A stretch of DNA of 64,000 bases from Bacteroidales bacterium (GTDB lineage Bacteria; Bacteroidota; Bacteroidia; Bacteroidales; UBA932): contig JAFZED010000068.1 of NCBI GenBank assembly GCA_017560825.1, positions 20,720 through 84,719 of the forward strand, read 5' to 3'. The notes below the pieces were generated by a model. The model saw nothing but the letters and a program-made list of their open reading frames with translations. It was not told the origin of the DNA and made no database searches. Of the stretch, positions 1 to 21,634 are shown one piece after another; within the stretch, counting starts at the first letter, position 1, and each line of letters starts with the position of its first letter. A program made the position numbers and the translations under genes.

Positions 1-917
1 TCTGTTGTAGCCTCAAGGTGGTCAACTGACTGTGCGTTATGCTTCACTCCGACCTGTACACCGCCGCTTACTGCAAGTTCGTTGGCGTGTATCTTCGGCT
101 TAATGCCATACTTTGCAGCTTCTGAGAGTATCTTGTCAGTCTCTTCTACTGTGAAGAATCCCTTGTCTGTGAAAACATCCACAAAATCTGCCAGATTTTC
201 AGCTGCAACAGCCGGGAGCATATCTTTGCATATGTGATCCACATAATCAGCCTGACGGCCTTTATATGCCCTTCCTACTGCATGTGCCCCTAAGAAGGTA
301 GATTTGATTGTCAGAGGGGTAGTCTCCTTTATACGGCGTATTACACGCAGCATTTTGAGCTCGTCTTCGAGGGTGAGACCGTAGCCGCTCTTGATTTCAA
401 CAGCTCCGGTTCCCATCGCCATAATCTCGTTAACCCTCTCCATTGACTGGCGATAGAGTTCCTCTTCTGAAGTCTCGTGCAGCAGGTCTGCGGAATTGAG
501 GATTCCGCCTCCGCGTGCTGCGATCTCCTCATAGCTCAGACCTGCAATCTTGTCGCGGAACTCTCCGTCTCGGCAGCCAGCATAGACAATATGCGTATGC
601 GCATCACAGAAAGCCGGCATTACAAATCCCCCCTTTGCATCGATGTACTCTATTTCGGTGGTTGTATTGGTATCCAAAACCGTGCTACCCCCCTGGCCGC
701 AGGGGGAGGGACCCGCGACGCAGTCGTGGGAGGGGTTGTTTTGGATACCAATATAACCGCCGTTACAAGGTCCAAAGTCGGTGATTATGCCGTCCTCGAT
801 GGTCAGGTAGGCATTCTCGATGCATTCTACGTGATTCATTTCGGAGCCCTTGAGCATAGTTTTGCTCTCGGGCAGGATGCCGGCAAGTGTACCTATATTA
901 TATATGATTGTCTTCAT
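1..917 (-). CDS. hutI: Imidazolonepropionase, C-terminus beyond window edge
   Basis: Hydrolyses 4-imidazolone-5-propionate to N-formimino-L-glutamate, the third step of histidine degradation, in the cytosol. About 305 codons are visible; the C-terminal part lies off the left edge. The amidohydrolase metal site is clear in FCDAHTHIVYAGCRDGEF, followed by GLSYEEIAARGGGILNSAD and the downstream IKSGYGL and FLGAHAVG motifs typical of HutI. The ATG at 917 opens MKTIIYNIGTLAG. Residues about 55-84 are an extra glycine- and cysteine-containing segment encoded by a palindromic repeat (665-753), inserted in frame between the N-terminal beta-sandwich part (IITDFGP) and the strand before the metal motif (EIEYIDAKGGF). 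The frame stays open, so the gene may still work. hutH lies immediately upstream on the same strand. Family assignment is firm; activity with the insertion is unproven. Confidence 0.93.
   Translation of the reverse strand, partial: MKTIIYNIGTLAGILPESKTMLKGSEMNHVECIENAYLTIEDGIITDFGPCNGGYIGIQNNPSHDCVAGPSPCGQGGSTVLDTNTTTEIEYIDAKGGFVMPAFCDAHTHIVYAGCRDGEFRDKIAGLSYEEIAARGGGILNSADLLHETSEEELYRQSMERVNEIMAMGTGAVEIKSGYGLTLEDELKMLRVIRRIKETTPLTIKSTFLGAHAVGRAYKGRQADYVDHICKDMLPAVAAENLADFVDVFTDKGFFTVEETDKILSEAAKYGIKPKIHANELAVSGGVQVGVKHNAQSVDHLEATT
665..753. repeat. Palindromic element inserted in frame in hutI
   Basis: Perfect 16-bp inverted arms (665-680 and 738-753, TATTGGTATCCAAAAC and its complement) enclose a 57-bp GC-rich core. 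The core holds nested hairpins: CCCCCTG/CAGGGGG and CGAC/GTCG. The minus-strand core contains CCCTCCCAC and CGGGTCCCTCCC, which recur in the element at 20802-20940. The element lies inside the hutI reading frame without a stop codon or frameshift. Confidence 0.85.
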
Positions 918-20725: not shown

Positions 20726-20748
20726 TCAATACGCATATGAACTTTGAT

Positions 20749-20782
20749 GAGGGTGACTAATAAGTGTTAGTCATCCTCTTTT
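20749..20782 (+). terminator. groESL terminator, probably an IS end
   Basis: The stem GAGGGTGACTAA / TTAGTCATCCTC (one mismatch, 6-base loop) is followed by TTTT, 23 bases after the groEL stop. The same sequence in inverted orientation occurs at 21578-21615, suggesting the host operon uses an insertion-sequence end as its terminator. Confidence 0.75.
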
Positions 20783-20801
20783 CATATATAGTTACAGGTA
20801 G

Positions 20802-20940
20802 GAGCGGAGATAGGGTAAGTTTAGCCCGGTTCCGTCGGAACAAGTTCCGACTCCATCCCTCCCACCGCTATCGCGGCGGGTCCCTCCCTCTAACGAGGCC
20901 GAGGGTGGCCACGCCGGCCAAACTTACCCTATCTCCGCTC
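20802..20940. repeat. Palindromic element with 21-bp perfect arms
   Basis: Arms at 20802-20822 (GAGCGGAGATAGGGTAAGTTT) and 20920-20940 are perfect inverted copies around a 97-bp core. The core reads CCCTCCCACCGCTATCGCGG, then CGGGTCCCTCCCTCT and AGGCC, and matches the core of the hutI element at several blocks. The arms differ entirely from the hutI arms. The stop codon of the transposase fragment is formed at the right arm edge (20940-20942). Confidence 0.8.
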
Positions 20941-21322
20941 TACAACTGCATTACATATCTGTTAGAGATCATCTTTCTGATATTATGTGCCACAGCTATA
21001 GTGGCGAACTCTGCTTTCACAAGTCGCTTTCCTCTGTAATGGAACCTTTTGAAGTTGTTGGCATCCTTGATTTGTCCAAAGACTGCTTCTGGTTCAATAG
21101 GTCTTTTACTTCTATGCTTTAACCCCTCTTCGCTCGTAAGAAGTACTTTAGCCATTGCACGAAGTTCATTATTCCTGTGATTGACCTCAATTGTCCTTCT
21201 GTCAGCCTTGCCTTTATAGTACATACCCCTTAGAGGACAGCGAGAGCAGTCTTTTGCACGATATACACTCTTGGTAGATTCATATCCCAGATCAGATGCT
21301 ACTATTAGTGTATTATATTTTC
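20940..21322 (-). pseudogene. IS1182-family transposase, C-terminal fragment
   Basis: A reading frame of about 125 residues without a proper start runs from about 21322 to a stop at 20940. It shows the C-terminal half of a DDE transposase: DLGYESTKSVYRAKDCSRC with PLRGMYY (the Cys-containing linker), KRPIEPEAVFGQIKDANNFK (the catalytic-Glu region) and FHYRGKRLVKAEFATIAVAHN with N-I-R-K-M. About two thirds of the protein is missing. The upstream break coincides with the palindromic element at 21327. The internal ATG at 21224 gives a 94-residue frame but is not a plausible functional start. The family assignment rests on remembered motifs. Confidence 0.75.
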
Positions 21323-21326
21323 AGGA

Positions 21327-21554
21327 GGGAGGATGGTAGTGATTGCGGAGACGTGTCCACCCCCGGACACGGGCAGGGTCGTGAGTGCCTTTAGAGAAAG
21401 TCCAGTGGACTTTCGTGCACGAACAGCAGGGCTTTAGCCCGCCGGACAGGGGCCCGCAAGATACGAGTTCCGCGATAGCGGGACGAAGTAGATTGTGGGA
21501 GGGGCCGGAGTGAGCGAAGCGAACGGAGTTCTCCGCAATCACTATCATCTTCCC
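21327..21554. repeat. Large palindromic element, 228 bp
   Basis: Inverted arms of 25 bp with two mismatches (21327-21351 and 21530-21554) surround a core of several perfect small hairpins: CGTGTCC/GGACACG, GAAAGTCCA/TGGACTTTC and GGGCT/AGCCC. On the minus strand the core includes CCCCTCCCAC and CGCTATCGCGG, shared with the elements at 665 and 20802. It is longer than the other two and looks like an extended or composite form. Confidence 0.75.
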
Positions 21555-21634
21555 GGTTAAATATATAAATGAAAAAAGAGTGACTAATCAGTCATAAGAC
21601 TTTTTAGTCACCCTCGTTTTTATATGCAGTACAA

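Follow-up and report, generated by a model that had tools for sequence, protein, structure and literature searches.

A Rickettsia-palindrome-like element of a Bacteroidales genus, often in frame within genes, with arms that appear to drift in concert and a core that turns round

The window analysed here, a 64,000-nucleotide stretch of a Bacteroidales genome (G000; 2.06 Mb, 77% complete; G and L numbers are our handles for genomes and loci), contains three palindromes. The first lies inside a gene that we take, from its protein sequence, to be hutI, encoding imidazolonepropionase, and the other two stand on either side of a transposase remnant. The features are:

3..917, - strand: hutI-like gene, running off the window, with its frame open across the element (weak Pfam match to Amidohydro_3)
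656..680, + strand: left arm of palindrome 1, within the hutI-like gene, which is on the - strand (arm pairing; arms of hutI orthologues)
681..737, - strand (CCCTCCCAC orientation on the - strand): core of palindrome 1, 57 nt, two hairpins, open in the hutI frame (folding; reading frame)
738..762, + strand: right arm of palindrome 1, with two bases unpaired with the partner arm; the arms match in sister genome G477 (arm comparison)
20746..20795, no strand assigned: GGTGACTAA..TTAGTCA hairpin with a T-run after it, resembling a terminator by eye and found beside other copies of palindrome 2 as well (sequence)
20802..20940, + strand: palindrome 2, from a multi-copy family with conserved arms of AGTGGCGGTAGGGTAAGTTTGG type (comparison of copies)
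20943..21320, - strand: C-terminal remnant of a DDE transposase (PF13751)
21313..21568, - strand: palindrome 3, composite (outer parts recur in other genomes)
21575..21620, no strand assigned: second GTGACTAA..TTAGTCAC hairpin, inverted relative to the hairpin at 20746 (sequence)

An earlier note on this DNA had described the three palindromes as sharing a core between differing arms, and this description was borne out. The paired arms are 92% identical in palindrome 1 (25 nt), 96% in palindrome 2 (20802-20826 and 20916-20940, 25 nt) and 82% in palindrome 3 (21313-21351 and 21530-21568, 39 nt). CCCTCCCAC is common to all three, CGGGTCCCTCCC occurs on either strand in palindromes 1 and 2, GGGGCCCGC is found in palindrome 3, and the middle hairpin differs from one palindrome to the next. 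Two hairpins make up the core: CCCTCCCAC-hairpin-GCGGG(C/T)CCCTCCC comes first and a second hairpin after it, and the first of the two covaries among copies (GACTTCGTC, TCCTTCGGA, GCCTTCGGC and others). All three palindromes fold more stably than shuffled sequences, with z scores of -8.4 and -8.7 for palindromes 1 and 2 as DNA and -6.8 for palindrome 3 as RNA. A search of the window against Rfam at gathering score returned two tRNAs only.

The same note had called the arms unrelated. That holds for palindrome 1 (656-762), the only element of the window with locus-specific arms, and fails for palindromes 2 and 3 (20802-21554), whose arms recur in other copies. Relatives of palindrome 2 with nearly identical arms are present at three further loci of the host genome (L002, L003 and L013, the last interrupted by an IS-like insert) and in G021, G026 and G066. 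The insert at L013 (G000:C39:7300-9800) carries a 490-aa reading frame (526-1998, - strand) and has GGCCACTGAAAAAG-type ends. Both outer parts of palindrome 3 were found again in G066, G024, G026 and G021, with pieces in G032, and its inner ~69 nt are absent from the G066 and G024 copies. The transposase end between the two palindromes (PF13751, E 5e-26) is presumably IS1182-like, and the terminator-like GTGACTAA hairpins flank the palindrome-transposase unit on either side, inverted to each other; hairpins similar to this type adjoin other copies. Relatives of palindromes 2 and 3 lie ~100 bases apart in G066 and ~1.6 kb apart on one contig in G026. We read 20746-21620 as a decayed multi-copy unit, and therefore the arms of palindromes 2 and 3 are not locus-specific. 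With respect to the traits of a MITE, palindromes 2 and 3 adjoin the DDE transposase remnant, and no target-site duplication was noticed by eye among the copies compared. Shared terminal inverted repeats are present in some subfamilies and absent from the locus-specific copies of the window's clade.

We searched genomes with the core pattern CCTCCCAC-N(3-33)-GCGGGYCC, using the reversed pattern as a control. The host genome has seven exact matches and none to the control. Within the genus, 55 of 101 genomes carry the pattern, with 265 matches in all and at least two in 43 genomes; the control gave 30 matches in 23 genomes and at most three in any one, and single core-pattern matches in a genome may be due to chance. 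Many of the relatives come from ruminant guts. Across the order, five of 295 genomes match, the host included, two of the others with several matches (10 and 3) and two with one doubtful match each. A stricter pattern matched one of 395 genomes of the phylum, G000 itself, the other 394 Bacteroidota being negative. Farther afield, Azospirillum megaplasmids (7 records) contain ~90% matches to 43 bases of palindrome 2, and one of these matches sits between two annotated genes and, by eye, inside a larger palindrome. The core motif stands at 1501-1542 of an Azospirillum brasilense plasmid (L406). Either transfer between phyla or convergence could account for a core present in Azospirillum and in one Bacteroidales genus. 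The core motif further occurs in 32 stretches of viral contigs (L374-L405), some contigs having several copies; a phage collection searched with the 51-base core region gave no match.

From the loci taken we obtained 88 distinct copies, of which 83 were analysed for ungapped stems. The median stem score was 16, compared with 6.4 in shuffled flanks; 56 of the 83 copies scored above the highest shuffle and 20 scored below 11. The 63 copies with a score of at least 11 have arms of 11-32 nt (20-29 nt in 46 of them), which fall into 37 clusters. A G-rich arm signature proved modest only (G>C in 23 of the 37 clusters against 9) and was set aside.

Other copies, too, lie in open frames of ordinary genes. 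We chose 18 frames that span the element for Pfam searches, and 15 of them gave a match (10 of 10 and 5 of 8). The match spans the element or flanks it on both sides in seven (L053, L054, L072, L091, L099, L104 and L110); the in-gene position was demonstrated through orthologues for hutI and lpxB, and the remaining matches are one-sided. Three of the 18 frames (L081, L058 and L061) had no Pfam match and may not be genes. In twelve copies the frame runs on across the element and has over 100 codons to each side of it. The gene names hutI, lpxB, tilS and rsmA are in part our presumption; Pfam backs the LpxB, RrnaAD, ATP_bind_3 and DDE domain assignments. In-frame palindromic insertion in unrelated genes, a trait of Rickettsia palindromic elements (RPE), is therefore found here as well. 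Five candidates for host genes broken by the element were judged false, since in three (L066, L077 and L101) the frame stays open across the element and its first part has fewer than 100 codons, and the other two (L018 and L062) seem to be intergenic or at the border of a gene. In the clade of G000, the core is of a 57-nt type at the in-gene loci hutI, lpxB and M20 and of a 61-nt type, starting with TAA or alike, at five intergenic loci; L110 has neither type.

An lpxB match was present in 89 of 101 genomes, and we read 30 loci. The element occupies the same loop in four of them (G000, G021, G066 and G026), in the opposite orientation in G026. The lpxB gene of G032 (L114) lacks the core, and where the others carry the element it has a perfect pair of 11-bp arms, CAGTCCGGAGG-8 nt-CCTCCGGACTG; this core-less site may be a deletion.

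The hutI locus was followed in two sets that overlap partly in genomes. In the first, 80 named loci were kept and 24 read, with the core in 10; in the second, 226 of 400 genus genomes gave a match, 30 loci were fetched and 26 parsed, 15 with the core and 11 without. The core runs in the direction of the gene in six of the 15 filled loci and is reversed in nine. One copy (G631) is decayed and has no usable arms, leaving 14, in all of which the core length (51, 54, 57 or 90) is a multiple of three. Because a turned core keeps its length, the reading frame would survive the turn and the gene would carry one of two peptides. Among the core-less sites, L352 keeps arm remnants. At this loop L353, L357 and L371 carry other in-frame repeats, of GTCATTCTGA / GTCATTTCGAGCGA type, and so the loop tolerates several repeat families.

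The two arms of the hutI element change together. We compared 21 pairs of loci whose left arms reach 70% likeness or more, the alignment being anchored on that arm. There were 105 left and 105 right differences, of which 93 are matched in both arms against ~8.7 expected if the arms were independent, a count that is descriptive because the pairs share genomes. In six less-overlapping pairs, picked by hand, 31 of 32 left and 35 right differences are matched, with 2.8 expected. The orthologous arms are thus alignable and have drifted together, and locus-specificity can therefore arise after insertion. The core also turns while the arms are kept. Between G592 (+) and G686 (-), all five arm differences are matched, and the core scores 45 when inverted and -5 when not. 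Between G477 (+) and G630 (-), all four are matched, and the core scores 55 of 57 inverted and -9 uninverted, leaving the G477 core about one letter from the inverted G630 core. One half-changed state was observed directly: G000 differs from its sister G477 by two changes in one arm only, whereas G477 has both arms changed. The more distant G630 has the right-arm letters of G000 at both positions, so that either the left arm changed first, G477 showing both arms changed, or G000 reverted. At one intergenic locus, common to G068 (L067) and G053 (L085), the flanks are 86% alike over 2.8 kb, and the 110-nt element between them is 96% alike in the opposite direction; it has turned round. L068 and L083 have a similar turned look, with a common flank that is short and repeated. 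All arm changes and turns were seen between species, none within one strain.

These observations include two traits of template switching, namely multi-base matched changes in both arms (hutI) and an inverted spacer between kept arms (G477/G630, G592/G686 and L067/L085). The footprint described for template switching at short inverted repeats agrees with the arm pattern in the parts of PMC8604942 and PMC8794818 consulted, and extension of the stem is among the footprints listed in the consulted part of PMC8794818. We think it probable, though well short of settled, that this is a dispersed non-coding palindromic element whose arms are changed in concert, and whose core is flipped, by template switching after insertion. 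The element would consist of two hairpins between two arms, mostly of 20-29 nt, and would settle between genes or, with the frame kept, in sequence encoding variable loops of housekeeping proteins; the arms would arrive with the element and not be made from the target, and some enzyme would presumably move it. Each inserted copy would then evolve through short-range switches of DNA polymerase from one arm of the copy to the other. Any alteration of one arm would be copied into the partner, keeping the arms matched while they diverge from those of other loci; the core or the whole element would sometimes be turned round; and a polymerase that switched to the other arm and ran past its end would make the stem grow outward into the target. 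Template switching accounts jointly for the matched changes, the flips and the extensions, and arm drift together with core turning may explain a common middle with arms that differ from locus to locus. It is possible that individual hutI copies represent re-insertion at a hot loop.

We considered the alternative proposed in the earlier note, in which the core inserts, one arm is target sequence and insertion itself produces the other as its inverted copy, with later concerted drift allowed. Several sites are suggestive. The core-less hutI of L142/G039 reads GAAGCCCTCGGCTGGAGCGGTG|CAGAATATATC, and in the filled hutI of L145/G530 these 19 bases (17 identical) form the left arm and an inverted copy of them the right arm. 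By eye, the left arm of the lpxB element in G026 contains the conserved V-W codons, and at site C the arm on the side of the gene can be read as the native C-terminal R-G-R, the far arm being its inverse. Native-looking target bases in such arms make an inverted target copy at insertion possible, and the 37 arm clusters among 63 good copies are in keeping with it. At single sites, stem extension and inverted duplication are inseparable, because the core-less relatives may be deletions (L114 and L352 retain arm remnants); at the intergenic sites B, E, F and G the flanks are too diverged to tell a native arm.

Arm likeness between different loci bears on the same question. In a first cross-locus test the arms of three clades scored above shuffles, but the sets were contaminated: in clade 2 one locus appeared twice, together with loci from a larger repeat, and clade 3 included one orthologous pair. 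The clade 2 likeness was dropped as void, because L067 and L085 are one locus and four other loci share the larger repeat. After orthologues and a repeat-sharing locus were removed from clade 3 (G058/G065), its cross-locus likeness was reached by 1 and 0 of 1000 shuffles in two versions with seven arms, and by 1 of 1000 with six arms. In clade 1, the window's own, 167 of 1000 shuffles scored as high for seven arms, one per locus, when the multi-copy family was left out; with that family included the figure was 16 of 1000 (17 of 1000 in the first test), and the earlier signal thus came from its addition. Five single arm comparisons were reached by 3, 18, 79, 903 and 589 of 2000 shuffles, the two notable ones (3 and 18) being hutI against lpxB, with G630 hutI against G066 lpxB giving the 3. 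From these sequences, the arms in one clade (G058/G065) look inherited from the element, and those of the window's clade may be too drifted to tell or may have been made otherwise.

Together, these results leave the conserved core with locus-specific arms standing for copies of the hutI type, and give a mixed answer on whether the arms were made from the target at insertion. The native-looking arms, and the seven loci of the window's clade whose arms are not clearly alike, argue for it; the joint drift of orthologous hutI arms after insertion, the full arms common to several subfamilies and the resemblance within clade 3 argue against it. Both of the observations that the earlier note had named as speaking against such an origin were made: arms are conserved among copies (palindromes 2 and 3, and clade 3), and an empty site with both arms exists in the lpxB gene of G032, if it is not a deletion. 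We regard arms made from the target as unlikely.

A separate proposal concerns mobility and is compatible with concerted change by template switching: the copies could be REP-type elements moved by RAYT (Y1) transposases. Core copy number correlates with the number of Y1_Tnp genes (rho 0.40, p 3e-5; 101 genomes, uncorrected for kinship or completeness), and Y1 is present in 50 of 55 core-bearing genomes compared with 28 of 46 core-less ones. However, the core pattern was found in none of 20 fetched Y1_Tnp loci (the match and up to 1.5 kb), where the bare octamer CCTCCCAC occurred in three, and three of 11 Y1_Tnp loci examined have other palindromes. The numbers correlate, yet the inspected loci are unlinked to the core, and we set the linkage aside; no mobilising enzyme was found for the element among these 20 loci, and RAYT mobility seems doubtful to us.

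If instead the hairpin were functional as mRNA or DNA, selection could keep the arms paired through compensatory substitutions, which would fit the near-complete compensation in the hutI arms and the covarying core hairpins. Selection on an RNA stem would favour G-U pairs in the sense strand. Among 25 in-gene copies, orthologues included, G-U pairs are no commoner in the sense than in the antisense orientation, with 11 in each beside 12 other mismatches, and these equal counts give no sign of such selection. We therefore rejected RNA-level selection, the mismatch types showing no strand bias; selection on a hairpin also leaves the inversions unexplained, and we consider it improbable. Least plausible is a small inverton whose core is flipped between its inverted repeats by a site-specific recombinase as a programmed switch: invertons are known from gut bacteria, at least in the portion of that literature consulted, and both orientations do occur between ~25-bp repeats within genes, but no crossover sequence is common to the loci beyond the inner few arm bases, and a 51-57-bp spacer seems very short for recombinase synapsis.

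We therefore return to an element with arms changed in concert and a core flipped by template switching, and read it as Rickettsia-palindrome-like, often in frame, with arms drifting in concert and a flipping core. RPE are ~150 bp long and lie in frame in many unrelated genes and elsewhere, according to the part of PMC10969869 consulted, and the present palindromes do likewise, a likeness drawn from description, the host not being a Rickettsia. RPE are said, in the consulted part of PMC6649704, to lose repeat identity over time, whereas here the arms remain matched while they drift and the core flips. Arm homogenisation, spacer inversion and stem extension liken the element to template-switch or quasipalindrome mutation as presented in portions of PMC8604942 and PMC8794818. 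The cases in those portions come from genes of yeast and from RNA stems, and the inverted spacers tabulated for yeast are a few bases long; here, in contrast, arms of ~25 nt enclose 51-57-nt spacers in an element that is present in multiple copies and across many species. Coding palindromes of Nematomorpha mitochondria also have long inverted repeats in coding sequence and concerted arms, but both of their arms code conserved residues, and a dispersed core is unmentioned in the part of PMC6649704 consulted.

Like bacterial MITE and REP sequences, the element is short, dispersed, palindromic and geneless; unlike them, its arms vary between loci, and neither a parent transposase nor a target duplication was identified. 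Mitochondrial double-hairpin elements and GC clusters are likewise small, mobile-looking hairpin elements, a likeness by description, and they differ from the bacterial chromosomal setting and the long arms around two hairpins seen here. A literature search covering open-access work found no description of this element family.

The copies offer many natural replicates of template switching in one defined structure within coding sequence, and species trees would allow their flips and matched changes to be counted. These copies also add a second bacterial group, unrelated to Rickettsia, with palindromes in coding parts of several housekeeping genes, and suggest a reason why a conserved core can have seemingly target-made arms. 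A bolder reading, which we hold only tentatively, is that the family acts as a template-switch machine in bacterial genes, in which arms merge with the target and stay matched, the core flips without harm to the frame, host proteins carry a reversible two-state peptide, and the core has been transferred between Alphaproteobacteria and a single genus of Bacteroidales.

Other repeats were noticed alongside. Another type of palindrome, GAC-CCCCGCC-hairpin-GGCACCCCCTNGCCGGGGGTGGCAT-GTC, whose arms likewise seem to differ, is seen in L285 (G026:C22:6670-7480) and in the left flank in L109, and has many partial matches in G024, G021, G007 and G000. In G065, loci L051-L065 include many copies of a palindrome with nearly constant 20-bp arms (CAGGCAGACCCCCGGAAAAC), whose outer flanks are partly common, as if nested in a larger repeat. 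Element copies at different loci of G068 and G053 (L068, L082, L083 and L087) have 240-550 bp of flank in common at 71-80% identity, and the element therefore seems to ride there in a larger dispersed repeat.
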